Part shown: piece after piece, positions 1,154 through 31,547 of the stretch | Numbering within the stretch: the stretch's first letter is position 1 | How the letters are laid out: every line of letters starts with the position of its first letter | IMG/VR virus record: IMGVR_UViG_3300036944_000095 | Span: 1-40,600 of that record | Direction: 5' to 3' (one strand) | Source of the DNA: a virus | Length of the DNA stretch: 40,600 nt | Made by a program: the position numbers and the translations under genes | Notes under the pieces: model-generated | The model's input: only the letters and a program-made list of their open reading frames with translations | What the model was told of the DNA's origin: nothing | The model's database searches: none

Positions 1154-3006
1154 GGGATGGCCCTTGCGATAGATGCCAGAATATTACCGCTGGAGAGTAC
1201 TGTGTACAGGATAACATCTCGTGCGTTTGCAGTCGTTGTAAGCACTGGCGTCTGACCACCAAACCATTTCCAGTCAGCAGCATAGGACAGTGTTCTAAAG
1301 CCTGTTGCATCCTGAGTTACAACAATAAAGCCACTCATGCCAACCACTTGGTTTGTGGGAGTTCCAAGCGTCCTGTTACCAGCTAGTGTAACAGAGAAGT
1401 TTGGGCCGTTTGCCATATCGACTGCTATCGTTGCCGCATCTGTGAGTGCTGACGCAGCTTTATTTAGCGCAACACTGGACCCGTTTACTGTTGGCGTACC
1501 TGTGAGAGCAGGAGAAGCAAGAGGAGCTTTAGCATCAAGTTGGGTCTGGATAGCAGAGGTAACACCGTCTGTATAATTAAGTTCAGCAGCCGTTGCAGTC
1601 AAACCAAGGTTAACTAGAGCGCCAGCAGCATCAGAAGCCCCAGTTCCACCATCAACTACAGCAAGGTCAGTAATCCCAGAGATAGAACCTCCAGTGATAG
1701 TTACAGCAGATGCAGCCTGAGTTGCAATAGTACCAAGCCCAAGGTTTGTTCTCGCACCAGCAGCATCAGAAGCCCCAGTTCCACCATCAACTACAGCAAG
1801 GTCAGTAATCCCAGAGATAGAACCTCCAGTGATTGTTACTGCAGAAGCATCTTGCGTTGCGATAGTGCCAAGACCTAAGCTAGTTCTAGCACCAGCAGCA
1901 TCGGTTGCGTTAGTGCCGCCATTGGCTAGAGGTAACGTACCAGACACATGGGTGGTCAAACCAACCTTACCATAGGAAGGAGCTACGCCAACACCACCAG
2001 AGATCAGGGCGTTACCCGTAGCAACGTCAGCAAGTTTGCTTAGCACACCTGAAGCAGATGCGTATAGGATGTCACCAATAGTATAGGAGGAGATACCTGT
2101 ACCACCATCAGCCACAGCCAAGTCAGTAATACCTGTAATAGTCCCACCCGTAATAGACACTGCAGAGGCTGCTTGAGTAGCAATAGTGCCAAGCCCAAGG
2201 TTTGTACGTGCAGTGGCAGCATCAGAAGCACCTGTACCACCATCAGCCACAGCCAAGTCAGTAATCCCAGAGATAGAACCGCTGGTAATAGTTGCTGCAC
2301 CAGTAACCGTAAGCGTTCCGGGAACCACTAGGGTAGCAGGAAGACTAACCACAGGGCTTACACCCTCACCAGTGCCAGAGGTTACAGTAACCTGATTGGT
2401 TGTGCCAGAGATGCCAGCAACGTAGTTACCCGTAGTGTCCGTACCCAGTGCTACAGAGTCAGCCTGAATAGTAGCAGTGATTGTGACGTTTGCAGAACCA
2501 TCAAAGGATGCGGAACCTGCGACATCACCACTCAGAGCGATTGTACGAGCAGTAGCCAATTTGGTTGCCGTGGCAGCATTACCCGTCAGATCGCCAGTAA
2601 TAGCACCAGAAGCATTCACCGTAGTGAAGCTACCAGCAGCAGGAGCAGTAGCACCAATAACCGTAGCATCAATCGTACCAGCATTGATATCAACAGTGTC
2701 AGCAACAAGTGAGTCGATGTTAGCAACACCGTCAATCCACAAGTCTTTGTACTCTCTCGTGGAACTGCCTAGGTCTAACACGTTGTCAGTCTTTGGCAAC
2801 ACGCTTGTAGCACTGATAACAACGTCCTGTGCTGGACCAACAACAAGGATTGGCGCACCATTGCCTGAAGTCCCATCATGGACATGCCCAGTGCTGGCAT
2901 TGAAAGCAGTTACAATCGCATCAAACTCTGCATCAAGGTCATCAGCATTGATGACACTCCCGTTAGAGATGTTGTTTGCGGTATCCTGACGTACATATCC
3001 AGTCAT
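1150..3006 (-). CDS. tail fibre protein with 45-residue repeats
   Basis: The protein has 618 residues. The N-terminus (MTGYVRQDTANNISNGSVIN, then HVHDGTSGNGAPI near 42-54) resembles the virion-attachment end of podovirus fibres. A segment around 70-170 is followed by repeats of a unit built on ITGGSISGITDLAV, DGGTGASDAAGAR and NLGLGTIATQ, a pattern common in fibre shafts. One copy is interrupted by a longer insert (ISSYTIGDILYASASG region). The C-terminal 130 residues (TDGVTSAIQTQLDAKAPL onward) form a non-repetitive tip domain ending WKWFGGQTPVL. It probably trimerises and contacts the host. It lies 4 nt downstream of the tail-tube gene. Confidence 0.85.
   Translation of the reverse strand: MTGYVRQDTANNISNGSVINADDLDAEFDAIVTAFNASTGHVHDGTSGNGAPILVVGPAQDVVISATSVLPKTDNVLDLGSSTREYKDLWIDGVANIDSLVADTVDINAGTIDATVIGATAPAAGSFTTVNASGAITGDLTGNAATATKLATARTIALSGDVAGSASFDGSANVTITATIQADSVALGTDTTGNYVAGISGTTNQVTVTSGTGEGVSPVVSLPATLVVPGTLTVTGAATITSGSISGITDLAVADGGTGASDAATARTNLGLGTIATQAASAVSITGGTITGITDLAVADGGTGISSYTIGDILYASASGVLSKLADVATGNALISGGVGVAPSYGKVGLTTHVSGTLPLANGGTNATDAAGARTSLGLGTIATQDASAVTITGGSISGITDLAVVDGGTGASDAAGARTNLGLGTIATQAASAVTITGGSISGITDLAVVDGGTGASDAAGALVNLGLTATAAELNYTDGVTSAIQTQLDAKAPLASPALTGTPTVNGSSVALNKAASALTDAATIAVDMANGPNFSVTLAGNRTLGTPTNQVVGMSGFIVVTQDATGFRTLSYAADWKWFGGQTPVLTTTANARDVILYTVLSSGNILASIARAIP
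1622..1832 (-). repeat. near-identical 135-bp tandem repeat in the fibre gene
   Basis: About 76 bp beginning at 1622 recur almost unchanged beginning at 1757, an offset of 135 bp that matches the 45-residue protein unit. More diverged units occur upstream in the gene, to about 2300. The near-identity of these two copies suggests recent duplication or homogenisation. Confidence 0.85.
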
Positions 3007-3010
3007 GTCT

Positions 3011-4549
3011 CTACTTTCTTCCGTTTACTTTATACTCAAGGACAGCAGTATCTAGGCTGAATGAGGGGTTCGTTGAGATGTCTTCAATTCGCAGAGAGAT
3101 AGTTTTACCACTACCAATTAGGTTTGCGTTGTAAACATCGTCTAGTAGGCTCCCATATAGAGAAGTCCCAAAGATAGCCGAAGGACTTCCATAGATAGAA
3201 ACACCTGTACCACTGCTCTCTAAAAGTATTGTGGTTACTGGTGTGCTGTTATAGTTTGCAACCTTGTAGATATCAAAGTCTACACTCAGGTTAACCGAGA
3301 AAGTACCCGTGATCTCTGTATACAAGGCTACCTTGTAGAAGGTCTTGCGTATCTGAGGGTCATCAATAGGCATATGTGGAGAGCGATAGATTGCCTCGAT
3401 GTTTGATCCATCCCGACTAGCCCCAGACTCCATACGATACACGTAGCCTGTGTCATTGCCAAAGACAATAAACTCTCCACCAGCAACATAACGGCTGTCT
3501 GCAACGTAGACCTTAAACCCACTAAGGGTAGCCCAGTTAACATTAGTCGAACCTTGGTCAGCAAACTGTGTACCAATTAGACCCTTAGCATTATCTAAAC
3601 TTACAGATGTACTATAAGCAAAGACCCTGTACTGTGCTTTTTCTCTGATCACTAGGCTTGTAAAGACTTGTGTGCTATTAACAAAAGTGATAGCATCTTT
3701 ATTGATTGGAGAAGAAGCCACACCAAGCCCAAAGTCACCGATACGCTCAGTTGCACTCAGAAGACGTAGACCATCCGCAGCCATGAACATAATGTCACCG
3801 CCGACTTCCTGAATAGTCTCGCCATGCAAACAACCAATATCATCTGTGATAGGGACAAGCTGAAAATCTGCTATGCTATTACCTACAAGGCGTCTAATCT
3901 TGTTTTTAGTAAAGATGATGAGTTGGTCACGGAACACAATCAAGCCAACAATGTTCTGTCCCACATTGATAGAACCACCACCAGAAGCCGAACTGAAGTC
4001 TGTGTCGAGGTAGGGTGCAGAAAAATATAACAGTGGACCCTTAGCACAAAAGATGGAGTTCTTAAAGAGTGCAACTCTCTCCGTACCCAATAAGTCTCCA
4101 CTAATAGTAGCAAAGCTCATTGTGTTTGCAGTGACGTTGTAGATGGCAGGATGGTTAACCCCGTCCACAAAGAATACTTTGTCACTACCGTTAAAGTTAT
4201 AGGACACAGCCTGAACACGACCCCCAAGCAGGGCTGCACTTCCTAAAGAAGTCCAAGTTGTACCACTACCAACATAATACTGAGATAGGTTACTGGCATT
4301 CTTTCTGACTGCAACAACTTGTGTCTCATTAAGAACCTTGAGTCCAAGCACTGGACCTGAGCCAGCCAGTACCGTAGAGCTAAACTTTGTGTAGCCCAAC
4401 ACCTTCTTGTAGCCACCCTCTTTGGAAGGCTCAAAGTTCTGCAGTAAAGTTGCCGAACCAACCTTCTGAAGACCCTGTTGTAGCGCACTCATATTGGAGA
4501 TTAGGCCACCCCCGAACTCGATTGGGAATGTTTGCCACTGTGAAGGCAT
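3011..4549 (-). CDS. tail tubular protein B-like / tail nozzle protein
   Basis: The protein has 512 residues. The N-terminus FPIEFGGGLISNMSALQQG and LLQNFEPSKEGGYKKVLGY match the opening of podovirus tail-tube / nozzle proteins, in which a short N-terminal tail precedes a beta-propeller-like body. Repeated patches (VLGLKVLNETQVVAVR, QLIIFTKNKIRRLVG, GDIMFMAADGLRLLS, SRYVAGGEFIVFGNDTGYVYR) look like propeller blades. The start overlaps the stop of the upstream adaptor gene by one base (TAATG). Position between adaptor and fibre supports the call. It could equally be named a P22 gp10-like stabilisation protein. Confidence 0.7.
   Translation of the reverse strand: MPSQWQTFPIEFGGGLISNMSALQQGLQKVGSATLLQNFEPSKEGGYKKVLGYTKFSSTVLAGSGPVLGLKVLNETQVVAVRKNASNLSQYYVGSGTTWTSLGSAALLGGRVQAVSYNFNGSDKVFFVDGVNHPAIYNVTANTMSFATISGDLLGTERVALFKNSIFCAKGPLLYFSAPYLDTDFSSASGGGSINVGQNIVGLIVFRDQLIIFTKNKIRRLVGNSIADFQLVPITDDIGCLHGETIQEVGGDIMFMAADGLRLLSATERIGDFGLGVASSPINKDAITFVNSTQVFTSLVIREKAQYRVFAYSTSVSLDNAKGLIGTQFADQGSTNVNWATLSGFKVYVADSRYVAGGEFIVFGNDTGYVYRMESGASRDGSNIEAIYRSPHMPIDDPQIRKTFYKVALYTEITGTFSVNLSVDFDIYKVANYNSTPVTTILLESSGTGVSIYGSPSAIFGTSLYGSLLDDVYNANLIGSGKTISLRIEDISTNPSFSLDTAVLEYKVNGRK
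3248..3276 (-). promoter_or_regulatory. candidate internal promoter (TTGATA-N17-TATAAC)
   Basis: The minus strand has -35 TTGATA (3271-3276), a 17-bp spacer and -10 TATAAC (3248-3253), a 10 of 12 match. It lies inside the tail-tube gene about 240 bp before the fibre start, so it could give separate fibre transcription. A match of this quality can occur by chance in a window this size. Confidence 0.35.
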
Positions 4550-5241
4550 TATTTATTCCTTACGGTCGAACGGATGTACTCGTAGCGGTTGATGTACAAG
4601 GTTCTCAAAGCCTTAATACCATCCTCAAACTTCTTCTGGCTAAGCTGAGAGCTTTCATTGTCACTCAAGAATGTGTGGGCATAGACCATAGCACCCTCGA
4701 CAATAACGTGGCGAAAGTCTGCTGGAATGCTTGGTACATCCGAGTATACGTCGAGTGGTGTTATCTTACGGTAGTACTCATACTTAATAGGGTATGCTTT
4801 GTCTGGGGAGGGTACTACACCATACTGGAGTGAGGGTGTGCGGAACACAAAGCGTGGCAGGGTGCGAATCCCATCCGAAGTATTATACTCATAGTCTAAG
4901 TACTTGTCAAGGTAATCTTCATAAGAGATTATTTGGAGTTTTACTGTTTCGTTACCCAGTGCATCATCCCTTGCAATACGGAAGGAGTCCATGTCAAGAG
5001 TTTTGGCATCACTGGGAATATCGTAACGTACAGTACCTGCAACAAGAGCCTCACTCTGAGACACATGGTTGAAAGGCCACTCAAACTGTTGTTGGTTGAT
5101 GTCGTAGATAGCAGAGTTAACCCCATCCTTTACCGCAGTATAGAAACCTACAGCACCTGAGAATGTGGAGGAGGTTAGTTCTACCTCGTTGGCACGACGA
5201 TTTACATCGTTGACTAGGCCGAGGAAATTATATGCAGACAT
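4549..5241 (-). CDS. tail tubular protein A-like / head-tail adaptor
   Basis: The protein has 230 residues. The N-terminal region (NFLGLVNDVNRRANEVEL, then VKDGVNSAIYDINQQQFEWPFN near 34-56) is the helical pair typical of phage head-tail adaptor / tail tubular A proteins. A beta-rich middle follows (VAGTVRYDIPSDAKTLDMDSF), then YEDYLDKYLDYEYN and a C-terminal helical segment. It probably forms the ring between portal and nozzle. An SD-like GAGGGA lies upstream of the ATG at 5241. Its place just before the nozzle gene supports the role. Confidence 0.7.
   Translation of the reverse strand: MSAYNFLGLVNDVNRRANEVELTSSTFSGAVGFYTAVKDGVNSAIYDINQQQFEWPFNHVSQSEALVAGTVRYDIPSDAKTLDMDSFRIARDDALGNETVKLQIISYEDYLDKYLDYEYNTSDGIRTLPRFVFRTPSLQYGVVPSPDKAYPIKYEYYRKITPLDVYSDVPSIPADFRHVIVEGAMVYAHTFLSDNESSQLSQKKFEDGIKALRTLYINRYEYIRSTVRNK
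4882..4910 (-). promoter_or_regulatory. perfect-consensus sigma-70 promoter inside the adaptor gene
   Basis: The minus strand has TTGACA (4905-4910), a 17-bp spacer and TATAAT (4882-4887), matching all twelve consensus bases with ideal spacing. It sits within codons for DKYLDYEYNTS of the adaptor gene and points toward the nozzle, fibre and chaperone genes. Promoter function is inferred from the match alone. Confidence 0.6.
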
Positions 5242-5801: not shown

Positions 5802-6875
5802 TTAGGCAAGGTTGTACTTTGCAGTAGCGATTGCTTCTGGACGCAGAATCTTACGGCCATACAAGTGCATACCACGGATGATGTCCGCAAACGAGTCTTG
5901 GTCACGGTAGGTTTCGGTCTTGTTGATCTGCTCAGCGGTAGCAACAGCCGAGTCATGACCAGCAACGATCACACCGTAGTTAGCATTCTGGTTTGCAACG
6001 CCAGTGGTAGCAGCACCCGTACCAACCGAAGGCAGGTTGTTCGAGACATACACACGGAAACCATTCCAGTTCGTCAGAACCAGACCGTTACGCAGTGCGC
6101 CAGAGTCACCGAAGTCAGCATTCAGGAAGCGCGAGTCTTCGTCCATCAGGACTTCCATCAGCACGGGGTCGATCACAACCCAACGGCCAGCCTTGTCAAC
6201 ATTCTGTTGATCCAGCAGACGGCCCATACGGTTGATCAGCATGACAGGCGACACGTACTCAGTAGGCAGAGCAGTAGCGCCGGGCAGACGAGCAGCCACA
6301 GGGATCGAGTGTTCGCCAGCAGAGGCGGTCGTGATGTTGCCGAAGGAACCCTTCTTGAGCTTCATCGTGGTCAACAGTTCGTCGGAACCAGCAGTCGTGA
6401 CAGCTTTCGTGCCGTTCACAATGTCATTCACAGCGCCTGCATTCGTGTTCAAAGCAGTCTGCTTGTAGCCCGACAAGTAGCCCAGAACTTCTTGGTCATG
6501 CTGGTCAGCCAAGCGGTAAGCCGCACGGTTGGTAGCCAAGTCCATGAAGTTAACGTGCGAGTGGGCTTCTTCGATGTCGTCGATCTTGAAGGCAAAGTAG
6601 TTAGCCTTGTCGATCACCAGCGAGAAGTCAGCATCCTGCAGGTCTTGTGCCTGTACCTGAGTACCACGAGCATAAGACGAGACAGAGATTTCTGGCTCTT
6701 TGATGATACGAACGGTGTCACCCTGAGCAGCAATCTCACCGAAGTAATCCGAATTGGTAATGTCGCCAACGATGGTTGCCTTACGGAAAGCAAGTTGGAC
6801 TTTCTTGGAATAGATAACAGACGAGAAGTTACCATTAGGCAAATTGCCGTAGCTGGGTGCAGTTTGGAAAGCCAT
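5802..6875 (-). CDS. major capsid protein
   Basis: The protein has 357 residues. It starts MAFQTAPSYGNLPNGNFSSV and continues with YSKKVQLAFRKATIVGDITN and GEIAAQGDTVRIIKEPEIS, a pattern shared by P22-coat-like capsid proteins of uncultured podoviruses. The middle carries the E-loop / spine features (FSLVIDKANYFAFKIDDIEEAH near 84-105, then MDLATNRAAYRLADQHDQEVL), and WVVIDPVLMEVLMDEDSRF with GFRVYVSNNLP is the typical late A-domain segment. It lies between scaffold and decoration genes. A TAGGAG Shine-Dalgarno precedes ATG 6875. It has its own promoter and terminator, consistent with very high expression. Confidence 0.85.
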   Translation of the reverse strand: MAFQTAPSYGNLPNGNFSSVIYSKKVQLAFRKATIVGDITNSDYFGEIAAQGDTVRIIKEPEISVSSYARGTQVQAQDLQDADFSLVIDKANYFAFKIDDIEEAHSHVNFMDLATNRAAYRLADQHDQEVLGYLSGYKQTALNTNAGAVNDIVNGTKAVTTAGSDELLTTMKLKKGSFGNITTASAGEHSIPVAARLPGATALPTEYVSPVMLINRMGRLLDQQNVDKAGRWVVIDPVLMEVLMDEDSRFLNADFGDSGALRNGLVLTNWNGFRVYVSNNLPSVGTGAATTGVANQNANYGVIVAGHDSAVATAEQINKTETYRDQDSFADIIRGMHLYGRKILRPEAIATAKYNLA

Positions 6876-7117: not shown

Positions 7118-7969
7118 CTATCTTGCACCGCCAGTAACATCATAGACAAATGTACCAGCCTGCATTGCAGCTTGAATACGCTTCTGCATTTTATCAAAGG
7201 TGTCCATGTTCATCTTGGCTACCTCAGACTCACGGATAGTATCAGTACCACTCTCAAGGTCAACGCTAGACTTGTTCTTGGTAGTCACAGAGGAAGCAGC
7301 TTCCTTAGCACTGGCTTTCTTTGCAGCAGGATTCAAACCCTTGTCTACCTTGTAGAGGTCAATGACACGCACAACTGCACGAGCATCTTCTTCATTCTCG
7401 TAGAGTACGTCCTGTACCCACTTAGGTTGTTCGTCTGCCCAGTTGTGGAAAGCATCAGACTTACGCAGATCATCAAAGTCTGGGTGACTCTCACGGATTG
7501 CATTCAGTGCCTTGTTACGGGCAGTCTCAGTAGTCATTTGCTCATACTCAGTGAACTGGCGCTCATACTTTGAGAGCTTCTCATTGGCCTTCTTCTCTGC
7601 AATAGTCTCCACGATGGAAGCTACGTCAGGGTATTTACGTGACCACTCTGCAATATCCTCGTCCGACTTAGGGGGAAGGATCGTCTGGTTCGTGGGCTGG
7701 GCTTTCAAAGCCTCTAGCTTCTTCTCCCACTCCTTCTCCTTCTCAGACATATGACGACGAAGATCACCATAACGCTTCTTGAAGGAACGCTCTTCTGCGT
7801 CTGCGGGTTCTGCCTCTGCTTCTACAGCAGGTTTCTCTTCTACAGGTTCATCCTCTACAGGTTCCTTACCCTGCATCAGGTCATTCAGTTCCTGCTCTGC
7901 ATCAGCAATGCGCTGACGGTTACGACGATTAGAAGCATTGGGGTCTACGTAAACTTGAGTGATAGCCAT
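7118..7969 (-). CDS. capsid scaffold protein
   Basis: The protein has 283 residues, is highly charged and largely helical: repeated Glu/Ala/Pro (PVEDEPVEEKPAVEAEAEPA near 36-55), then RSFKKRYGDLRRHMSEKEKEWEKKLEAL and a coiled-coil-like stretch EKKANEKLSKYERQFTEYEQM. A compact C-terminal part (FDKMQKRIQAAMQAGTFVYD) may contact the capsid shell. The lack of Cys, the charge pattern and placement directly upstream of the capsid gene are standard for podovirus scaffolds. An AAGGAT Shine-Dalgarno precedes ATG 7969. Confidence 0.75.
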   Translation of the reverse strand: MAITQVYVDPNASNRRNRQRIADAEQELNDLMQGKEPVEDEPVEEKPAVEAEAEPADAEERSFKKRYGDLRRHMSEKEKEWEKKLEALKAQPTNQTILPPKSDEDIAEWSRKYPDVASIVETIAEKKANEKLSKYERQFTEYEQMTTETARNKALNAIRESHPDFDDLRKSDAFHNWADEQPKWVQDVLYENEEDARAVVRVIDLYKVDKGLNPAAKKASAKEAASSVTTKNKSSVDLESGTDTIRESEVAKMNMDTFDKMQKRIQAAMQAGTFVYDVTGGAR

Positions 7970-8010: not shown

Positions 8011-11000
8011 TTATTGTTTTCCGCCAAGACCTTTTGACTTGGGGTTAGTCTTCTTTGGTTTAGTTACAAGTCCACCATCCTCAAAACCTGCTCGTCCACC
8101 CTGAGGGGTTTTAGTTGGGACGGTGACTGTCTTGTTACCAGCAGGGGTTGAAACTACTTTGGTGGTTGTTTTTGCTGGTGCTGAGGTTGGAACAGAAACT
8201 CGCTGTGGTCCTGCTGGTGTGTTCACAACTTTAGAAGCACCTGTGGCAGCATTAGCAGCAGCCTTAACTGCAGGAGTATTCACAGCACTGGTTGTAGGGG
8301 AACTAGTAGGACGCTTTGGTGGAGCCACACTTGCACTAGCTGGGAGACTTCCTGTACCACCACCAGAGCTAGACTTAGGCTGTTGAACTGGTGCTTTCTG
8401 TGTGGGTGCAGTGGGTGCAGTTCCAGCAGCTTTATCTTTTTCTTCTAGGGTTTTCAGATACTGTACACCCGTACCCGCAAGTTTAGCTTTAATCAGACCC
8501 TGCTGCACGGTAGGAAGGTTTGAGATATAAGCAGTGGTTGCTTCCGTCAGCTTCTTGTATTCCTCTGTACCAGATAGACCTTGAGCCTCCATACGTAGTA
8601 GAGCAGCATTGGCTTCTGCTACATTCTGTACTTTCTTGCCAGAACTTACTGCTGCAGCACCGAGTGACAGTGGCATAAGACCCGTAGCGAGTCCAACAGC
8701 ACCAGCCACCTTAGCCCCAAACTGGCCTGAGGTATCCTTAAGGGCATTCATCCCAAACTCGTAAGGGTTGCTGTTGATAGCATCATAGTTCTTGTCAGCC
8801 CACGAGGAGTAGTTGTAGTTGCTTGAGGTGGGGTCATTATCATCTTCGTTGGGGCTTGAGTCGTTAGAAGAACCGCCAGAAGACTCTCTTGGTTGAGACT
8901 TAGTTGCGTTGTAGGTATCTTCCAGTGTCTGTGACCAAGGAACAAAACCTGCAGGGATAGCACCAAGTGCTACACCGTCCATGAACTGTATGCCCTGCTT
9001 CTCACCAGTGGAGGGGTTAAAGTACTGGCGTGTCTCCATAGTAGAGTTTGTACCTAAGCCAGTTGGAACAGTTGGAGTTAGGTTAAACTTGGTGCGGTCA
9101 AAGCCTACAACATCACCACCCACAGCCATCCCAGTGGACCCTAGAGCCTGCTGAAGCATTTGCTCTTCCTCAGGGCTAAGCTCGTCCATGCTGTCTTCTG
9201 CGGGTACTCCCTGTGCGTCTACGGGTGTACCACCAATGCGACCATTGGCTTCCATGTCTGACAGACCCTCTTTGGCTTTAGTCCGAAGACCCTCAAAGAA
9301 GCTGACACCGAAGTATCGCACTACGTCTGCTGGAACGACATACTCGCCCTCAGACAGCTTGGCGTCTACATCATCACGAACTTCCGAAGCCAAAGCTCCG
9401 GGCGGGATATCGTTGCCTGTGACGGGTTCACGAGACATGCCATCATCAGCCATCCCACCTTCTTGCATTAGCTCATCCATCTGTCTATCCTCTACCATGC
9501 CACCTTCGGCAAATCTTCCAACCTTAAAGTTTGCATCCTTGACACCACTGAAGTCAATTTGGATTGCCGTACTATCTAGTGTTTGCTCTACCCCATTAGC
9601 ATACCCCTTGTCACTGAAGTATGGTAGGTCAATGGTTTTTATCTGGATACCCTCCCCGAACTCTTCTTTAAGTTGGGAGATAAAGTTCTGCACACCATCC
9701 TTGTAGGTCTTAGTAAAGCCACTAGACTTACCCATATAGCTGTCATACTCTTTAGAGCCTAGTCGCGCTCTCCCAGAAGTTACGATGCGTTGCAAGTTAG
9801 GTATGACAATAGAGGATACACCCTCTTGGCTTGCCTTAGACATTGCAACTTGTAGTGCCAGACGAACAGCATCCGAGTCTTCTGTGAGTGGTGACTTACC
9901 AATAGCCCGCATACGCTTTTCTGCTATAGGAGGAGACTCATAGGAGTATTTCGTGATCTGGTCTAAAAAATCGTTTGGCTTATAGTCTGCATTACCAAAC
10001 TTGCGTCCCATTTCCTTGATGTCAAAAGTTTCACGTAGCTTGGCTGCTCTTGCTTCAAGTTTAGCTTCTTCTTCTGCAGAGACAGGCAGTCCATCTTTCT
10101 TTGCCTTAGACAGTCGAGTATCTTCTGAACCTATTGTAAAATACTCTGTTAGAGCTTCTTTGTTCTTCTTGTAGAAGGCTTTGTCTTCTTTGCTCATGGG
10201 CATGTTTTCAAGGAGTTCGCCGTAAGCTGCTTCCCTTGAGACTGGTCCACGAGGTTTTGCTGCACCCTTCTGCACAAGGTCTGACTGTATCTCTTCTACT
10301 AAAAGATACTGCTCACCATCATTGTTCTCTCTTACAGAGACACGGGAGTGGGCAATAGTTTCATCGTTGTAGTGTGTTCTATCCATGTTAGGGTAGAAAG
10401 CTGGGGAGTCAGGGGAGTTTGGAGTAGCATCCACGATGAGTGTAGTAGATGAAACTTCTCTGTCCTTAACCTGTTGACGTTGAGTACTAGCATTAGCTGG
10501 GTCATCAACTTCTTTTGCAGTAACCTTATAAGCCTTGTTCTCTGCGAGAGCCACAGCCTCTTCTCTGGTGTAGCGTTTCATAGGGTCAACACCTAGGTCC
10601 ATAGCGTCAAGCTCTGCCCTACGTACACCCTGAGCTTTTGTCTGCAAGAACTTTACAAGCTCACTACCCTTGAAACCTTTTGCGGGAAACTCTACAGACT
10701 TAATTGCCTCAACAGTTGGGCTGTAGAACTCCATAAGGGATTCAGGGTTCAGTTCAAGTTTACCCTCACCTGTTGTAGCAAACATCTTTGGCTTAGCTAC
10801 TATAGGTTTTGCACCACCAAATAGCCAACTTGCTGCTGTCTGGTTCTCAGGCTGCATAGCCAGCATCTGTGCGTCTGTGTTTAGTTTCTTCCTAAGCTCT
10901 TCCTCACTGTTAGCAGGAAGCCTTGCAGTTGGCATGTCGTTGTCGCCATAGAAAGGTTTTTCACCGACTCTAGCATACGTAGAGTATCCCATAGATGCTT

Positions 11001-12369
11001 GGTCATAGACATCAGATGGCTTGGTCTTCAGTCTTGCCTCTGGGGTAAGTTTTGCCCACAACTGTGCAGCACGAGCTTCAAGCTCCCCCGGATTTTCTTC
11101 ATACTTCATATAGGCTAATCTTTCTAGCCTATCCCTATCTGCGATAAACGCATTCATAGCAGAGTCAGCTTTTTTATATAGCTCGTCCATCTCTGCTACA
11201 GTAATATTCTTACTGTTAAGACCTTTGTTATATTCCGACATAGCGGCTTTGGAGGATTGTTCCAGTTTGTTGAGGTTATCTACATCTTGTTTCATGTCTC
11301 CAGCGGCAGTAACCCAAGGGCCAATCTTTTCCCACTTACCTGTTACAGGGCTTTTTTCAATACTTCTATCAAGGAACCATTTAGAGGCTGCACCACCAGA
11401 TGTTCCCTCAACCGCCTGAACACCATGCTGTAATTCATGTAGTACTACGTCCAATATGCCATCTGGTGTATTATCTTCTAGACTAGCCAAACTAAGGTTA
11501 AGTTGTTTCTTACTGGCATTAAAGCTACCATTGCCCTTTTTAATGTCTGGGTCAAAGGTGATCTCAAAACCTTTAAGTTGTGGGTAGTTTTCGTATATCT
11601 CTGGAAAGTCGATAACGTCAGAAATACCTAGACTAACCTTACCGCTTTCCCCATTAGCTTTTTGGGCAGCAGATAGGCTTGGCACTGTTTGCTTGAGTGT
11701 GTCAAAGTCTTTGACAGAAGCTCCAGCAGGGTCAATGTTAAAGACAGGTCTGGGGGAATCCCCTATTTGCGGCAGATACTGGATGCCAGTCTGTTCATAA
11801 ATCTTCTGGGGGTCTTCTCCAGCCATATCAAGGAGGATTGCTTCACCCTCTTTTTCATTAGGGAACTTCTTGGCCTTTGGTCCACCAAAGATGCGGGTTA
11901 CGTTTGGGTCATACCCATCCAGTAATCTTGGTGCAGAAGCCCCAGCCATCATACCTGCTACATTGAAAGCATCTTGAGTTGTAGCGTTAGGGTCACTAAA
12001 AGAACTTACTGTCTTAGCGATACCCTCTGCTACACCCTTGGCTAAGCCTGTTGCCGTTCCAAGTGGGTCTTCTGTGACAGCTTTGTATGCAGAGCCTACG
12101 TTCTGAGCTATGTTACCCGCACGTTCACTTAGGCTAATGTCTTTTTGCACCACGGGCTGGATTGTGTAAGTATTACCAGCGATATTCTTTCTGATCTTAA
12201 AACCAAGTTCATCATAACCAACAATCTGGTCATCATCTGGCATAGACCCCACAGGCAGAGCCATAGGATCATACTTATACCCATCAATCTCTGGCAAATC
12301 AAAAAGACCATCATCCTTAGGCTTAACTTGCTCACTCAACATAGCATCAGTTTGTTCATATGGGGTCAT
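8011..12369 (-). CDS. large polyvalent virion protein with zincin-like metallopeptidase motif
   Basis: The protein has 1452 residues. Residues about 170-430 contain VVLHELQHGVQ (HExxH at 311-315) followed about 110 residues later by NPGELEARAAQ, the GExEAR signature seen in zincin-like domains of large polyvalent phage proteins. A second module carries DRTHYNDETIAHSRV and LLVEEIQSDLVQ, another polyvalent-protein signature, and ends with an RLALQVAMSKASQEG segment. Then come EGGM repeats, a conserved LSEGEYVVPADVVRYFG block, a helical Ala/Gly region (KVAGAVGLATGLMPL) and a Pro/Thr/Ala-rich basic tail. No tape-measure protein is seen. By size and place beside the portal, this is probably an internal virion protein ejected with the DNA. 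Peptidase activity is inferred. Confidence 0.65.
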   Translation of the reverse strand: MTPYEQTDAMLSEQVKPKDDGLFDLPEIDGYKYDPMALPVGSMPDDDQIVGYDELGFKIRKNIAGNTYTIQPVVQKDISLSERAGNIAQNVGSAYKAVTEDPLGTATGLAKGVAEGIAKTVSSFSDPNATTQDAFNVAGMMAGASAPRLLDGYDPNVTRIFGGPKAKKFPNEKEGEAILLDMAGEDPQKIYEQTGIQYLPQIGDSPRPVFNIDPAGASVKDFDTLKQTVPSLSAAQKANGESGKVSLGISDVIDFPEIYENYPQLKGFEITFDPDIKKGNGSFNASKKQLNLSLASLEDNTPDGILDVVLHELQHGVQAVEGTSGGAASKWFLDRSIEKSPVTGKWEKIGPWVTAAGDMKQDVDNLNKLEQSSKAAMSEYNKGLNSKNITVAEMDELYKKADSAMNAFIADRDRLERLAYMKYEENPGELEARAAQLWAKLTPEARLKTKPSDVYDQASMGYSTYARVGEKPFYGDNDMPTARLPANSEEELRKKLNTDAQMLAMQPENQTAASWLFGGAKPIVAKPKMFATTGEGKLELNPESLMEFYSPTVEAIKSVEFPAKGFKGSELVKFLQTKAQGVRRAELDAMDLGVDPMKRYTREEAVALAENKAYKVTAKEVDDPANASTQRQQVKDREVSSTTLIVDATPNSPDSPAFYPNMDRTHYNDETIAHSRVSVRENNDGEQYLLVEEIQSDLVQKGAAKPRGPVSREAAYGELLENMPMSKEDKAFYKKNKEALTEYFTIGSEDTRLSKAKKDGLPVSAEEEAKLEARAAKLRETFDIKEMGRKFGNADYKPNDFLDQITKYSYESPPIAEKRMRAIGKSPLTEDSDAVRLALQVAMSKASQEGVSSIVIPNLQRIVTSGRARLGSKEYDSYMGKSSGFTKTYKDGVQNFISQLKEEFGEGIQIKTIDLPYFSDKGYANGVEQTLDSTAIQIDFSGVKDANFKVGRFAEGGMVEDRQMDELMQEGGMADDGMSREPVTGNDIPPGALASEVRDDVDAKLSEGEYVVPADVVRYFGVSFFEGLRTKAKEGLSDMEANGRIGGTPVDAQGVPAEDSMDELSPEEEQMLQQALGSTGMAVGGDVVGFDRTKFNLTPTVPTGLGTNSTMETRQYFNPSTGEKQGIQFMDGVALGAIPAGFVPWSQTLEDTYNATKSQPRESSGGSSNDSSPNEDDNDPTSSNYNYSSWADKNYDAINSNPYEFGMNALKDTSGQFGAKVAGAVGLATGLMPLSLGAAAVSSGKKVQNVAEANAALLRMEAQGLSGTEEYKKLTEATTAYISNLPTVQQGLIKAKLAGTGVQYLKTLEEKDKAAGTAPTAPTQKAPVQQPKSSSGGGTGSLPASASVAPPKRPTSSPTTSAVNTPAVKAAANAATGASKVVNTPAGPQRVSVPTSAPAKTTTKVVSTPAGNKTVTVPTKTPQGGRAGFEDGGLVTKPKKTNPKSKGLGGKQ

Positions 12370-12557
12370 TCTGCATTAACCTTGTCACGGAGCTTCTGGA
12401 GTTTACGTAGTGCTAGTAGCTCACCCTGAGCGCGATGAATGTCTACAGGGTCTTTGACTTGCTCCAGTGTTTTATAACACAGTTGGATCATGGTGTCAAG
12501 TTCTGTGAGGAACTCAGGCCACAGCTTGGGGTCGTTTACGAGGAGCTTGAGACTCAC
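12366..12557 (-). CDS. small helical protein between portal and polyvalent protein
   Basis: The protein has 63 residues: SLKLLVNDPKLWPEFLTELD, then a helical segment ending AQGELLALRKLQKLRDKVNAE. It is short and highly helical, with no Cys and no signal. It overlaps both neighbours by 4 nt (ATGA), so translation is coupled through portal, this gene and the large protein. Similar tiny helical genes are common next to podovirus portals; no function is known to me. It also contains a promoter-like sequence for the downstream gene. Confidence 0.65.
   Translation of the reverse strand: MSLKLLVNDPKLWPEFLTELDTMIQLCYKTLEQVKDPVDIHRAQGELLALRKLQKLRDKVNAE
12471..12499 (-). promoter_or_regulatory. candidate promoter for the polyvalent protein gene (TTGACA-N17-TATAAA)
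   Basis: The minus strand has TTGACA (12494-12499), a 17-bp spacer and TATAAA (12471-12476), an 11 of 12 match with ideal spacing. It lies inside the 63-codon gene, about 100 bp before the start of the 1452-residue protein. Confidence 0.5.
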
Positions 12558-14626
12558 TGCATACCTCCACCAGTGTTGGCACTGAACCCCTGCTCTCCGG
12601 GAACAGGCACAGAGCCAGTCCCAATGTTACCACCACCAGAACCAGTGGTGTCCTGTGCCTGTACTCCTGCTGGAGCCTGTGGAGCTTGTGGTGGTTGGGG
12701 TTGAGACGCTTGGAAGGTCTTGAGGATTTCAGCCTGAATGGCTGCACGTTGCATAGAGTTAGCAACCTTGTCTGGGTCAAGCTCCATCGACTTAGCAATC
12801 TCACGAACGATGTAGTCCAGACGAGCGAAGGGTGCAAGGATTGGGTTCTGTACCACACCAAGGAACTGCATCAGGCGTTGCGAACGTACTTCATTAGCCA
12901 TCAGTGACTCAGTACCAGCAGCCTTAACTTCTAGGTCACCCTTAATCTCTGGGTCAAAGTCAAACTGCATATTGAAGCTGAACAGAGCCTTGCCCAGTGG
13001 AGCCAACAGGTAGTCGTCAATGTTCTTCACCACAGTACGGATCGAACCGTTAGCAGCAGACATAAGCATAGAGATGCCTGACGCTGTACGGCCTACACCA
13101 GAGATACCAGTCTGACCATATGCAAAGGATGGGAAACCAGTAGACTCATCTGCAAGCACACGAGCCTTGTCAAACATCTGCATATTCTCGTTGGACACGT
13201 TAGGGAACTTCGTGCCAAAGATAGCCTGTCCGGGCGCTCCACCCTGACGACGAAAGACTTTTCCGGGGTAAACTGCAAGGTCTTGTCCGGGAACTAGGTT
13301 AGTCTCGTCAATCTCGATCAGTAAGTTACCACTGAGGGCAGCGTTGTCTACAGCCATACGCATGAAGCCGTTCATTAGGGTCTGCGTGTCGTCCATGTTC
13401 TCAGCAATACCAATGCCCCACATGGAGTACGGGTTCACTTCATATGGAACTACATAGAATGGGATCAGTGTTGGAGTGAATGGGTTGAGGACCAAGCGCA
13501 GGATACGCCCGTTGCACAGCCAGATGTTCACTGCAATGTTTTCTTTGCTCTTAAGCTCACGAGGTATAGCCACATTGTGGTTTTCCAGAGTGGTTCTCTC
13601 AATGTTACCCCAGAACTCTAGGACTTCAAAGCGTTCCGTATTGATCTGCTGTGTGTCGTCTTCCATAGCCTGTTCCCACCACTCTTTGATGTAGTTGGGG
13701 CCATGCTTGAGTGCAATCTTAATCTCATTGTCACGGAAGAAGGGACGAGTAGCCAGCTTGCGGACTTCGCTGTAGGACATCTTGTGACGCTCAATGACGT
13801 ACTCAGCCTCTTCCATGCTGTGTGCATCTGGGTCTGGGTAGAAGTTCCACACGGATACGTTAGACACCATTGGGACAGTCTTAATCACAGGAGAGTAGTT
13901 CCCCTTATCATCCCACTTGGGGTATTCCTTGTCAATAGCAAACGGACCCTTCATAATGCCCGTGCCAAACAATGCACACTCTAGTGCAGTGGAGCGTAGG
14001 TGCTTGTTAGCAGAAGACTCTTCCAACTGGTCATGGATTTTCTTTTCCATCTTCTTGGCTGCAATCATGGCAGGCTCAAAGGTGATCTGTGTGGGGGTCA
14101 GTCCGGGGCCGGGACGAATATCCTCAATCGGCTCAAGGTCTTTCTTCAGGCTACCCAGACGTTCACGGTAGTCCTGCATCGTCTCTCCGGGAAGTAGTGG
14201 CTCAATACCAGCAGCCTTCTCAGCCTTCTTAACATCATCATTGGTTTCAATGTGTACTGACTCAACCACACCCTCAGGCAGGGTCGTAGGGTCAATAACA
14301 ATAGGGAACTTACCGTTACCAAACAGAACTTCTGTCATCTGACCAAAGGCAGCAAGAACCTTAGTCTTTGTAACCTTAACAAAAACCCGTGACTTCTCTG
14401 TGCTGGTAAACTGTACGTCCGCACTGTACATGCCACGGTAGTTCTTGTATGCAGTGATCCAACGAGTCTCTTCTGTCTGTCGTGCAGTTTCAGCCTTGTT
14501 GAAACGCTCAGTGACATAGGCTACGATACTACCCGCAGCCTTGTCTGTAGGAGTATCACCAGAGGTGTCTTCAACAGCCAGCATCTTTGTGCTATCGGTC
14601 GAGAGGGTATCTTCTTTCATCTTCAT
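12554..14626 (-). CDS. portal protein
   Basis: The protein has 690 residues, in the range of P22-type portals. Recognisable blocks are FNKAETARQTEETRWITAYK (N-terminal helix), VKVTKTKVLAAFGQMTEVLFG, HLRSTALECALFGTGIMKGP, SVWNFYPDPDAHSMEEAEYV, PFYVVPYEVNPYSMWGIGIA, and ISMLMSAANGSIRTVVKNID, the stem/clip helices of podovirus portals. The C-terminus (about 640-690) is a low-complexity Gln/Pro/Gly tail. It forms the dodecameric DNA entry ring. It is the first gene downstream of the terminase. ATG at 14626 or 14620 (MKMKEDT) are both possible. Confidence 0.9.
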   Translation of the reverse strand: MKMKEDTLSTDSTKMLAVEDTSGDTPTDKAAGSIVAYVTERFNKAETARQTEETRWITAYKNYRGMYSADVQFTSTEKSRVFVKVTKTKVLAAFGQMTEVLFGNGKFPIVIDPTTLPEGVVESVHIETNDDVKKAEKAAGIEPLLPGETMQDYRERLGSLKKDLEPIEDIRPGPGLTPTQITFEPAMIAAKKMEKKIHDQLEESSANKHLRSTALECALFGTGIMKGPFAIDKEYPKWDDKGNYSPVIKTVPMVSNVSVWNFYPDPDAHSMEEAEYVIERHKMSYSEVRKLATRPFFRDNEIKIALKHGPNYIKEWWEQAMEDDTQQINTERFEVLEFWGNIERTTLENHNVAIPRELKSKENIAVNIWLCNGRILRLVLNPFTPTLIPFYVVPYEVNPYSMWGIGIAENMDDTQTLMNGFMRMAVDNAALSGNLLIEIDETNLVPGQDLAVYPGKVFRRQGGAPGQAIFGTKFPNVSNENMQMFDKARVLADESTGFPSFAYGQTGISGVGRTASGISMLMSAANGSIRTVVKNIDDYLLAPLGKALFSFNMQFDFDPEIKGDLEVKAAGTESLMANEVRSQRLMQFLGVVQNPILAPFARLDYIVREIAKSMELDPDKVANSMQRAAIQAEILKTFQASQPQPPQAPQAPAGVQAQDTTGSGGGNIGTGSVPVPGEQGFSANTGGGMQ

Positions 14627-14638
14627 ATCCTATATAGG

Positions 14639-16255
14639 TTAGTAGCCAAACTTGCTGTCAGCAATGTGGTGTCCGATATTCGGGGTCTGGTCAGAGTCAA
14701 ACATTCCAGTACTTGGTCGAGTCATAACACCATAGCGTAGGGCGTCATACAGGTGGTCCTCAGAGTGGGTATCAACATCCTCAGAGTTTGACTTACTGAG
14801 TGGGATGGAGGGTAGCTGAGAGATCAGGTTCTTGCAGTTATTGAAGAACACCATCCGTGGTTCCCCAGTGTAGTCATCAACCTGCAGCAGCCTGTGTATC
14901 TCGTTCTTACCAGCAATACGTGAACCCTTGCTTCTGTCTGCTGGACGCCATCTGCATCCCTTGAGGATCATACGTTCTGCAATGCTTGGACCAGTATCAC
15001 CACGCTTGTGCCAGAGGGAAGAGTCAAGAACTCCGTAGCGTATCTTCTCGTTATACTCTAGGCCCAGAATCTTGTCTGCTAGGTCTTCAGCCAAAACCTT
15101 AGACACGTAGAGTTCTCTGTAGACTATCAACTGTCCGCTTGGAGCAATGGCAAACCACAGGATGCCACTGTAGGAACTGTAGCCGTAGTCTGCTGCACGG
15201 AATCTGGGCCAGTTGTTGGGGATGTCAAATGGTTCAATGGTGTGTAGTCTACGGTTAAACTCTGCGAAGGCTGCACCCTCTGCTACATCCCAGTTACCTT
15301 CGAGTAGTTGCTTACGCTGGTACTCAGGCAGGGACATAAGGTTAGCTTCGTACATCCCATCTTCAGCAAGGTATGGGTTGTCATACAGAGTTGCAGGAAT
15401 AAACCTGCGTTGGAACAGTGGCTCACCAGCACGGCTATGACCCTGAGGCCACACGAGTTGGTCACCTGTGTCTGGGTCAATCGCCCAGAATGCCTTGCCG
15501 GGTTTTGCAGGGTCAATGAAGGCTTTCTTCACCCAGCTATGTCCAGCACCTCCGGGGTTAGTGGTAGCCCGTTGGTATAGTTTCAAGCCACTCGCTTTGG
15601 TAGTACGTAGACGAGAACGCATATAGTTCCAAGCAAAGGGACTAGCCCACTGGGTCAGTTCGTCGAAGCCAATCCAGTTATATGCCTGACCCTGATAGCG
15701 AGTAACGTCATCATCTGCATCAAGGTAGCTCATCCAGAGTGTTGCACCTGATGGTGCTACCCAAGTCTTGTCTCGTTCTAGGAACTTGATTCCGGGAATA
15801 GCCTTGGGGTATAACACCTTGGAAACTGAAACGAGTTCTCTGAGTTCTTCCGTAGACTTACGTACAAGCAGCATCTTAGCATGTTCGTTGTTCAGGAAGC
15901 GTACAGGGTCTGCCAACATAGCGTAGGACTTACCACCACCAGCAGCACCACCATACAGAACCTCTTGTTCGTCAGCAGAAAGGAAGGCTGTCTGTGGACC
16001 ATCGTTAGGCTTAAAGATAACCTCTCTGGCCTTCTTTACGTCAATCGGTGCTGGTTTCGGTTGGGCTGGAACTGTCAGCTTGATCTCTTGTGGCTGCTCC
16101 TCCAACTCTGGCTTCGAGCTTTTCGGCTTTCGCAATGGCTTCTTGATACCTTTGGGCAAAGTATCTGTGTGTTGCAGCTTCTGTCTTACGCTTGTATTCA
16201 AGTTTAATCCTCTTATACAGACCAACGTGAGAGATAACTCTGCCACTCTGCTCAC
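14639..16255 (-). CDS. terminase large subunit
   Basis: This is the DNA-packaging ATPase/nuclease. Walker A is YGGAAGGGKS (about 101-110), Walker B YNWIGFDELTQ, then the coupling region RATTNPGGAGHSWVKK. Nuclease acidic residues are visible in RAADYGYSSYSG, YGVLDSSLW and DHLYDALRYG. The frame first opens with GTG at 16255 directly after two stops. The first 40 or so codons there are clearly the out-of-frame shadow of the 146-residue HTH-like protein; terminase-like sequence starts near KPELEEQPQEIKLTV (about 16,110). No ATG with a Shine-Dalgarno precedes Walker A. Translation therefore starts internally at a non-ATG codon, or follows a +1 frameshift from the overlapping gene. Confidence 0.88.
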   Translation of the reverse strand: MSRVAELSLTLVCIRGLNLNTSVRQKLQHTDTLPKGIKKPLRKPKSSKPELEEQPQEIKLTVPAQPKPAPIDVKKAREVIFKPNDGPQTAFLSADEQEVLYGGAAGGGKSYAMLADPVRFLNNEHAKMLLVRKSTEELRELVSVSKVLYPKAIPGIKFLERDKTWVAPSGATLWMSYLDADDDVTRYQGQAYNWIGFDELTQWASPFAWNYMRSRLRTTKASGLKLYQRATTNPGGAGHSWVKKAFIDPAKPGKAFWAIDPDTGDQLVWPQGHSRAGEPLFQRRFIPATLYDNPYLAEDGMYEANLMSLPEYQRKQLLEGNWDVAEGAAFAEFNRRLHTIEPFDIPNNWPRFRAADYGYSSYSGILWFAIAPSGQLIVYRELYVSKVLAEDLADKILGLEYNEKIRYGVLDSSLWHKRGDTGPSIAERMILKGCRWRPADRSKGSRIAGKNEIHRLLQVDDYTGEPRMVFFNNCKNLISQLPSIPLSKSNSEDVDTHSEDHLYDALRYGVMTRPSTGMFDSDQTPNIGHHIADSKFGY

Positions 16256-17754: not shown

Positions 17755-17895
17755 TTAGCACTTACCTTTCTTAGCCATGCCACCCTTAGCCATACCTTTT
17801 TTGACAGTACCACCCTTGGCCATCTTAGCCATAGGCTTAGCCTTAGCTGTCATTCCACCCTTAGCCATCATAGCTTTGTCTTTACCGTACATCAT
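17755..17895 (-). CDS. 46-residue MAKGG-repeat basic peptide
   Basis: The peptide has 46 residues, opens MMYGKDKAMMAKGGMTAKAK and ends GMAKGGMAKKGKC. It is built almost only from Met, Ala, Lys and Gly, with the MAKGG unit repeated and a single terminal Cys. It is too short and too low in complexity for automatic callers, but lies in a tight series of minus-strand genes with 2-3 nt gaps on both sides. It is probably translated with its neighbours. Lys/Gly-rich peptides of this kind occur in other phages beside DUF6496-type genes. Function unknown. Confidence 0.6.
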   Translation of the reverse strand: MMYGKDKAMMAKGGMTAKAKPMAKMAKGGTVKKGMAKGGMAKKGKC

Positions 17896-22212: not shown

Positions 22213-22237
22213 GTCGTTGGGCAAAGCCCAAAGGATA

Positions 22238-22254
22238 TGTCGGACGGTCCGACA
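22238..22254 (+). repeat. 17-bp dyad TGTCGGACGGTCCGACA, copy 2
   Basis: Identical to copy 1 over all 17 bp. It lies 26 nt after the terminator, at the beginning of the next unit, and is followed by the hairpin ATCCCCTAAGGGGAT (22261-22275). Confidence 0.85.
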
Positions 22255-22260
22255 GGTAGC

Positions 22261-22275
22261 ATCCCCTAAGGGGAT
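22261..22275 (+). other. CCCC/GGGG mini-hairpin
   Basis: ATCCCC TAA GGGGAT is a perfect 6-bp stem with a 3-nt loop. Similar short CCCC-AAA-GGGG dyads lie at 21545-21555 before the first early gene. No U-run follows. Confidence 0.45.
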
Positions 22276-24932: not shown

Positions 24933-24962
24933 TAGTTAGGTCAATCAAACAGGAGAAACGAT

Positions 24963-25103
24963 ATGACGGACCGTCCGACAGATAAGCTGCAACTGATGCT
25001 ACTGGGTATGTGCGAGAAGCTACTGCCCAAGACTACCGAGCGTAGCAATCAGGCGCTGATCACCCTGCTTCAAGACATACGCAAGCAACTGGAGGCGAAA
25101 TGA
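24963..25103 (+). CDS. 46-residue early protein whose first codons are the 17-bp dyad
   Basis: The protein has 46 residues: MTDRPTDKLQLMLLGMCEKL then a helical remainder ending LLQDIRKQLEAK. AGGAGAAACGAT gives a good Shine-Dalgarno for ATG 24963. The stop overlaps the next ATG (ATGA), so it is part of a coupled operon. The first six codons are dyad copy 5, so here the element is translated in frame. It is probably a helical oligomer or peptide regulator; no family recognised. Confidence 0.65.
   Translation: MTDRPTDKLQLMLLGMCEKLLPKTTERSNQALITLLQDIRKQLEAK
24964..24980 (+). repeat. 17-bp dyad, copy 5 (TGACGGACCGTCCGACA), inside a coding sequence
   Basis: It differs from copy 1 at one arm position (T to A at 3) and in the centre (CCG for CGG). 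It is the only copy with an arm mismatch and the only one whose ATG is clearly used as a start codon. Confidence 0.75.
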
Positions 25104-30671: not shown

Positions 30672-30680
30672 GGAGCAACC

Positions 30681-31547
30681 ATGCGTATTCCATATACACT
30701 CTCCCAAGACAGCATCACCGTCTTTGCTGGTGGCAAGATGCACACTGTCCTGTCTGGACACAAGAACTTTGACCTGCTGCGGGATCACCTCAAGCAGGCT
30801 GAACATTCCATCGAAGTGATCATGCGTCTGGCTGACCGTGAGCAGAACATCCGTGACTCTGCCGCTGGCTCTAAGGTGGAGATTGTTCACGGCACTGTGT
30901 ACTACGAGGGCCAAGAGCTTAACAACACACTGACTAACAAGCTGCTGAGCCTGTTGGATGAAGGCTTCGATGTTACACCGTGGGTCAAGTTCCTTGAGAA
31001 CCTGATGCTGAACCCATCCTTCCGTTCACGGGAATGTCTGTTTGGTTTCTTGGAGAACTTCAATGCACCAATCACACAAGCGGGTAACTTCATTGCCTTC
31101 AAGCGTATCCGTCAGGACTGGATGGACATTCACTCTGGGACTATGGACAACAGCGTAGGCACTGTAGTAAAGATGGACCGTGCGAAGGTTGACGACGACC
31201 CACAGCACACCTGTTCATCTGGCTTGCACGTTTGTGCTGACCAGTACCTGACACACTTTGCTGATGCAGCCAACTCCCGCACGGTGGTGGTTGAGGTTAA
31301 CCCTGCCAATGTGGTTGCGGTTCCCTACGACTACAACTTTGCGAAGATGCGGGTGTGTGAGTACAAGGTGGTCGAGGAGATTGAGCCAGCACGTATCCCA
31401 GAAATCCTTGACAGTGAGATGTATGGTGACTACTATCCTCTTGAGGATGACTTCAACTACCCTGATGAAGAAGATACTGATTTCTGGGATGATGAGGAGG
31501 ATGATGCTGGTAAGTGTGGTGATCCAGACTGCTGGTGTGTGAACTGA
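30681..31547 (+). CDS. rIIB-like: rIIB-like protein
   Basis: The protein has 288 residues. The block NLMLNPSFRSRECLFGFLEN followed by PITQAGNFIAFKRIRQDWMD and a later TCSSGLHVCADQYLTHFADA is the recognisable core of rIIB-like proteins in many phages. The C-terminal 45 residues are acidic (DYYPLEDDFNYPDEEDTDFW) and end in a Cys cluster GKCGDPDCWCVN that may bind metal. It starts 9 nt after the rIIA-like stop with AAGGAGCAACC upstream. Confidence 0.8.
   Translation: MRIPYTLSQDSITVFAGGKMHTVLSGHKNFDLLRDHLKQAEHSIEVIMRLADREQNIRDSAAGSKVEIVHGTVYYEGQELNNTLTNKLLSLLDEGFDVTPWVKFLENLMLNPSFRSRECLFGFLENFNAPITQAGNFIAFKRIRQDWMDIHSGTMDNSVGTVVKMDRAKVDDDPQHTCSSGLHVCADQYLTHFADAANSRTVVVEVNPANVVAVPYDYNFAKMRVCEYKVVEEIEPARIPEILDSEMYGDYYPLEDDFNYPDEEDTDFWDDEEDDAGKCGDPDCWCVN

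Follow-up and report, generated by a model that had tools for sequence, protein, structure and literature searches.

Polyvalent proteins combine several unrelated domains in one long protein, and in the sections of Iyer et al. 2017 (PMC5512222) drawn on here their commonest domain is a zincin-like metallopeptidase (MPTase), recognizable by an HExxH motif, a later helix bearing a Glu, and variable inserts. The MuF polymorphic toxins of temperate phages, according to the part of Jamet et al. 2017 (PMC5576092) used here, are encoded in the packaging or head module and join a constant N-terminal part to a variable C-terminal effector part. Here, we describe a protein of 1452 residues that invites comparison with both, encoded in a 40,600-base virus record (IMG/VR IMGVR_UViG_3300036944_000095; hereafter the window, with residue numbers referring to this protein unless stated). 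Its front half carries two modules, a zincin-like module Z and a GNAT-like module E, which precede a constant C-terminal core encoded beside the portal gene. We give roughly an even chance to the reading that this is a carrier-plus-cargo protein of an HMO-2011-type podovirus, that is, a virion-delivered polyvalent effector in an exchangeable slot, with both Z and E acting in the new host cell. The features shared with the polyvalent MPTases, as far as that source was drawn on (PMC5512222), are the several unrelated domains in one long protein, the HExxH and later Glu helix, the variable insert, the LPD-type neighbour, and the context of a portal-terminase phage; by comparison with those described there, the cassettes here sit on one constant C-terminal core at one locus, occur in fused and separate forms, and in near-identical phages are the only difference. 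Relative to the cited account of the MuF toxins (PMC5576092), the slot likewise joins a constant to a variable effector part in the packaging or head module, but the order is reversed, with a variable N-terminus and a constant C-terminus, and no Pfam hit to the MuF family came from the window protein, P0002, P0003, any of 76 cargos, or any of 7 core members.

The sequence families that precede the core are exchanged at recurring borders between closely related phages. In a set of sister phages with about 83-96% identity in their other virion proteins, the same core is preceded by Z and E in the window, Z alone in L017, E alone in L016, an unrelated cargo in L003, and none in L004. The portals of L003 and L004 are 96% identical to that of the window and that of L016 is 88% identical, and the L017 contig, which has no portal, matches the window at 86% in the scaffold-like protein and 94% in the capsid. 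Identity is lower in part of the tail protein set of L016 and L017, at about 57-61% for the product of 4549-5241 and for the protein after it. Homology to the window protein breaks at residues 13 and 951 in L003, where the cargo is unrelated after a common first 13 residues, at residues 6 and 503 in L016, and at residues 484 and 953 in L017, while the DNA homology of L004 reaches window position 12371, 2 bases before the ATG, and restarts at 9479 (residue 963). The L003 cargo resembled an ART domain by eye, but Pfam gave no family and the assignment was dropped. A second pair, L188 and L189, has TerL proteins that are 100% identical over 435 amino acids, portals that are 99.4% identical over 704, and cores that are 96% identical over 228, combined with unrelated cargos of 1139 and 988 amino acids; among open reading frames (ORFs) above 250 amino acids, nothing beyond TerL, portal, and core matched between them at E 1e-5. 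On a portal tree of 63 rows, the eight cargo/fusion states need 26 changes (the least possible being 7), against a mean of 35.7 in shuffles, none of which reached a value as low as 26 in 200 trials. Cargo states thus change often, though related phages tend to share states.

The breadth of this exchange was gauged by a census of the best 80 of at least 293 core-profile loci plus 8 known loci; L181 is the same contig as L017 and was left out of later counts, giving 87 core loci. Among the 75 census genes complete at the 5' end, 28 have 40-59 amino acids before the core motif and 47 have 81-1670. The 87 loci contain 57 fused cargos, 12 of them cut at the 5' end, and in 18 of the loci a total of 20 separate ORFs of at least 100 amino acids sits upstream of the core; such ORFs were looked for only where fewer than 300 amino acids precede the core motif, no portal is in view in two of the 18 loci (L234 and L236), and L248 combines a separate ORF with a short fused part. 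By profile, the 77 cargos comprise 9 with Z only (three as separate ORFs), 23 with E only, 3 with both, and 42 with neither, and the 41 members of the last group that have at least 100 amino acids fall into 17 clusters. Pfam and PHROG scans covered 76 of the 77 cargos, the 98-amino-acid cargo of L217 being left out. At the thresholds used, the Pfam matches, like those to PHROG in part weak, included Phage_L5_gp82 (10), LPD23 (8), DUF6782, ART-PolyVal, NlpC/P60, and SprT-like (2 each), and Hydrolase_2, CHAP, and methyltransferase (1 each); those to PHROG included tail lysozyme (7) and several endolysin families.

In the mechanism that we propose, the core (about residues 960-1452) would join the head or portal region and exit with the DNA; cargo joined in front of the core would travel along, as would a separate cargo protein encoded just upstream. 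In the newly infected cell, Z and E would then each target host or defence molecules, with Z being an effector in its own right and not only scissors for E. Packaging, ejection, enzyme activity, and targets are all matters that we infer, packaging from the position of the gene, the fusion to the core, and the hydrolase-like slot mates; a search of open-licence PMC papers gave none on the virion proteomics of HMO-2011. The indirectness of the packaging step leaves room for cargo that is unpackaged, made late, and active in the producing cell (e.g., against superinfection or host functions), with its fusion to the core being incidental, and the ability of cargo-sized ORFs to stand apart from the core means that fusion is not needed. 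We nevertheless consider this improbable in view of the 57 fused cargos of many kinds that lie in frame with the same virion-cluster core at the same border. Entry with the DNA gains in likelihood from the place of the gene beside the portal and from the peptidoglycan-hydrolase-like cargos that occupy the same slot in some relatives. The lysozyme-, CHAP-, NlpC/P60-, and SleB-like matches among the slot cargos would also suit a role mainly in envelope passage, with the zincin cutting an envelope or cell-wall-linked protein during DNA entry. However, the ART-PolyVal (2) and methyltransferase (1) cargos and the GNAT-like E fit the cytoplasm better, and a membrane helix common to the cargos was considered and rejected, since a 19-residue window with a hydropathy of 1.6 or more within the first 300 residues occurs in 5 of 64, versus 5.9 expected by chance; we therefore regard envelope passage as very improbable.

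Several points weigh against the carrier-plus-cargo reading as a whole. The loci are metagenome assemblies, in which a chimeric contig could imitate exchange, and neither Z nor E is present in 42 of the 77 cargos. Many of the hydrolase-like cargo matches are weak, such as that of NlpC/P60 in L204 at E 0.013. The LPD23 match of the window protein falls below Pfam's cut-off, with E 0.0063 in the Pfam scan and 9.7e-6 when scored for one genome. Finally, a PDB structure search of Z gave mostly coiled coils, because the helical hairpin insert captured the search.

An earlier note, made from the sequence alone, had proposed one polyvalent protein in which a zinc peptidase-like domain is joined to other modules, including one around AHSRV and VEEIQSD, and to a basic low-complexity tail. 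The gene is indeed one ORF, in which HELQH, GELEAR, AHSRV (residues 673-677), and VEEIQSD were all located (Table 1). An LPD23 adjoining the HExxH, followed by the Glu motif, favours the zinc peptidase-like domain; more than one separable module is present, with Z and E each occurring alone elsewhere; the AHSRV...VEEIQSD region falls in module E; and the last ~160 residues form a low-complexity tail rich in Pro, Thr, Ala, and Lys. At least two unrelated domains are thus united in one polypeptide, and a portal-terminase packaging module adjoins the gene, as in other polyvalent proteins. The present analysis adds the minus-strand orientation, the exchange of the front half on a constant core, the GNAT-like module E, and a GG motif that recurs at module ends. 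Pfam matches of the window protein to Ribosomal_L5_C and GP68 were taken as chance, and a PDB search by sequence with the whole protein gave nothing at E up to 1.

By its sequence features, Z belongs to the known LPD23 plus zincin-like polyvalent metallopeptidases, and protease activity is predicted. In shuffles of the window protein, any HExxH arose in 8 of 20,000 and an HExxH with a downstream [GV]ExE[AS][RQ] in 1 of 20,000. An LPD23 stands beside the HExxH in five viral relatives scanned, with L013 alone above the cut-off (7e-16). Scanning with a Z profile confirmed at least 404 stretches among viral contigs and 114 among genome contigs, and 80 from either set were kept. H[DE]xxH is present in 166 of 166 Z relatives, a universality that is partly by construction, as HExQH served as a search pattern; the third motif is found in 140 of the 162 with enough downstream sequence and is absent in 22, where shuffles give 0.75. 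Zincin-like metallopeptidases of polyvalent proteins typically pair an HExxH with a conserved Glu motif borne on a later helix, the arrangement seen here. In the AlphaFold2 model of Z (54 sequences; predicted local distance difference test [pLDDT] 83.5, predicted template modelling score [pTM] 0.79), HELQH falls within a helix at 153-172 and GELEAR within one at 278-289 (model numbering), with a long helical hairpin between them; the underlying alignment was selected to contain the HExxH and third motif, and those columns are invariant by construction. The earlier note had named a predicted fold without a zinc site as a result that would speak against its proposal; no such fold was obtained, as judged from the placement of both motifs on predicted helices. 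Foldseek ranked selecase, which we take to be a metallopeptidase, second at E 0.36, and the VIA rows for the Z model are helical or coiled-coil stretches of the insert. The best PDB match of the Z profile is IrrE (E 0.035), and Z relatives show weak sequence matches to the metallopeptidase families Zn_peptidase_2 (0.0012), SprT-like, and DUF6782. In one protein, at 3439-6651 of L011, RTX-type repeats (HemolysinCabind, 1.2e-16) precede a zincin relative, and the same repeats, visible in the sequence, likewise precede one at 1317-4415 of L014.

The chief rival to an effector role for Z is self-processing, in which the zincin would divide the long protein into units, either ahead of packaging or following entry. 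Such a role was put forward for polyvalent-protein MPTases by Iyer et al. 2017 (PMC5512222), who, in the portion used here, cite how DdrB of phage P1 is processed, and Z lies before E in all three cargos that have both. Yet, of the 77 cargos, 23 have E but lack Z and 9 have Z but lack E, the latter including three separate ORFs, and the sister phages L016 and L017 carry one module each. Since either module occurs in the absence of the other, and Z does so even as a separate ORF, Z would not be needed to free E and is unlikely to exist only for that purpose; we therefore hold self-processing to be rather unlikely, even if it is the most serious of the alternatives to the carrier-plus-cargo reading.

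Module E probably has a GNAT-like fold, to judge from its predicted structure. No Pfam family covers it in the scan of the window protein, and named phages showed no tblastn match to the module. L016 has the module at 85-88% identity; more distant versions, at 25-30%, are the separate ORFs that precede the core in L195, L200, L202, L205, L208, L210, and L242, with those of L200, L210, and L242 matching over part of the module only; a version with EIQSDWHQ is found inside larger proteins elsewhere. E lies within 11 amino acids of the cargo end in 23 of 26 cases. In a 24-row alignment, H666, H674, R676, E693, Q695, and D697 are invariant. The model (pLDDT 78.8, pTM 0.73) shows a GNAT-like order, with strands at 111-117, 133-145, 167-177, and 183-192, then a helical insertion, and in the second half a helix at 327-344, a strand at 349-353, a helix at 380-403, and strands to 448 (model numbering). 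Of the 50 VIA rows listed for E, 43 read as acetyltransferases (the AtaTR and Elp123 rows presumably being such enzymes), 5 are ICL2/Rv1916, whose C-terminus we assume to be GNAT-like, 1 is the phage Mu Mom protein, and the remaining one is a protein titled transcriptional regulator. The order of elements in Mom, a GNAT, is as predicted for E (8bv8, Z score 7.5 over 148 residues), and ICL2 is also similar (9obo, 8.5 over 138 residues); the pool was picked by Foldseek, and the tool itself warns that a Z score under 8 may reflect a common arrangement. E differs from the GNAT acyltransferases in its identity of 3-15% in the listed rows and its long helical insert, and its 24-row alignment has no invariant glycine after the EIQSD strand that would correspond to the acetyl-CoA glycine loop. 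A Foldseek search of the PDB gave E-values of 0.16 or worse, while BFVD yielded 17 matches at E 0.001 or better, 2 of them in large-polyvalent-protein entries and most others unnamed or uncharacterised; a designed protein matched by the E profile in the PDB at 0.014 was ignored. Acyl transfer is a candidate activity of the module.

The core and its surroundings link the gene to a marine phage group. HMO-2011-type phages have been described as dominant among marine phages and, in the part of the source used here, are defined by a DNA polymerase, capsid, and TerL of the HMO-2011 type together (PMC9038755). Reading along the minus strand, the order in the window is TerL, portal, a 63-amino-acid ORF, this gene, a scaffold-like gene, major capsid, and tail proteins with a fibre. 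The window portal is 56-70% identical to the portals of the HMO-2011 and CRP phages listed, and the order portal, small ORF, large hypothetical gene, next gene, and coat is annotated in HMO-2011, CRP-207, and CRP-9; by portal identity and the shared order of virion genes, the structural module is therefore HMO-2011-like. In phages of this type, the core sits between the portal and the next virion gene, and when the whole protein was compared by tblastn with named phages, the match covered parts of residues 907-1160 in 14 of the 15 records and the zincin part in the other. L195 has an ORF similar to the 63-amino-acid one, flanked by its separate cargo and its core. The earlier note had also remarked on the lack of a tape measure. 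The neighbouring virion genes do match podovirus-like families, but two tape-measure profiles of PHROG are weakly matched by the LSEGEYVVPAD region of the core itself, in each of 7 members (best E 2.4e-5); the likeness to tape measure proteins is confined to this short stretch, inside a podovirus-like gene set.

Table 1. Positions in the window of the gene, its parts, and neighbouring genes
Feature	Residues	Positions	Strand	Remark
Whole gene	1-1452	8011..12369	-	single uninterrupted ORF
Module Z	150-487	10909..11922	-	LPD23 + zincin-like metallopeptidase
LPD23 match	160-195	11785..11892	-	below Pfam cut-off
HELQH	311-315	11425..11439	-	
GELEAR	428-433	11071..11088	-	presumed third zinc ligand
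Module E	505-959	9493..10857	-	GNAT-like predicted fold
VEEIQSD	691-697	10279..10299	-	
FAEGGMV	953-959	9493..9513	-	cargo-core border motif
Constant core	960-1452	8014..9492	-	
LSEGEYVVPAD	1005-1015	9325..9357	-	tape-measure-like stretch of core
FEDGGLV	1429-1435	8065..8085	-	C-terminal GG tail, then basic end
63-aa ORF		12366..12557	-	between portal and this gene
Portal protein gene		12554..14626	-	
TerL		14639-16255	-	
Scaffold-like gene		7118..7969	-	named from position only (phrog_13678, unknown function)
Major capsid protein		5802-6875	-	

A further regularity is seen at the ends of the modules. The border of the 57 fused cargos has GGx[VIMLA] in 52 and the stricter [FYMLA]xxGGx[VI] in 38, and the Met equivalent to the start of an unfused core often comes after this motif. 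Separate E cargos typically end in RFNKGGLV or RFAEGGLV, and most core C-termini bear a GG[LM]-Lys tail. By the pattern GG[LMIV], such a tail marks 66 of the 76 cores and 12 of the 20 separate cargos, and is thus absent from 10 and 8, respectively; it occurs in 0 of 58 TerL, 0 of 69 portal, 0 of 69 scaffold-like, and 0 of 59 capsid proteins, in 14 of 504 other ORFs of at least 80 amino acids, and in 7 of 475 shorter ones. Since the pattern was written after seeing the core C-termini, the count for cores describes a homologous family, and independent recurrence is limited because the separate cargos with the tail are mostly E homologues. A ribosome-binding-site reason for the motif was mostly rejected by codon choice: GGAGG encodes the glycine pair in 14 of 57 junctions (0.25), 4 of 67 C-terminal tails (0.06), and 134 of 1011 other GG pairs (0.13), a modest excess at junctions that would allow for a minor contribution. 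One possible interpretation, offered tentatively, is an open effector-loading slot in which the same assembly partner would load proteins ending in FxxGG(L/M)V, either fused to the core or free just upstream, with the GG serving as a packaging address and the cargos as plug-in cassettes in an inverted counterpart of the polymorphic toxins. In the open-licence PMC literature, no paper combined phage, C-terminal, and GGLM, and EIQSD appeared only in two papers, unrelated by title. Separately, a small ORF at 17755-17895 (minus strand) carries repeated MAKGG units and basic residues (MAKGGMTAKAKPMAKMAKGG...) that recall the core GG tail, and L004, L006, L176, L237, and L247 have small ORFs with a similar tag upstream of the terminase.

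Other parts of the window deserve brief mention. The tail-position gene at 3011-4549 (minus strand) matches phrog_5107, named amidase, at E 6e-48 and structural families too, so that the amidase label may mislead, and four copies of a 204-nucleotide repeat lie at 1505-2299 (minus strand) within the tail fibre gene. A 33-nucleotide inverted pair around GGACGGTCCG-like palindromes lies at 22235-22267 and 24951-24983, 2.7 kb apart. On the plus strand, adjacent ORFs of 647 and 288 amino acids at 28728-31547 resemble an rIIA/rIIB pair by eye, and a 359-amino-acid ORF at 31951-33030 similarly resembles a tyrosine integrase, suggesting a temperate phage.

The near-identical sets (the window with L003, L004, L016, and L017, and L188 with L189) amount to natural swap experiments that separate the roles of the modules and speak against a zincin that serves for processing alone. 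Were the end motif truly a packaging address, it would provide a portable tag for loading proteins into phage particles. More generally, if the carrier-plus-cargo reading is true, one exchangeable slot next to the portal would reveal what these phages introduce into cells as infection begins.

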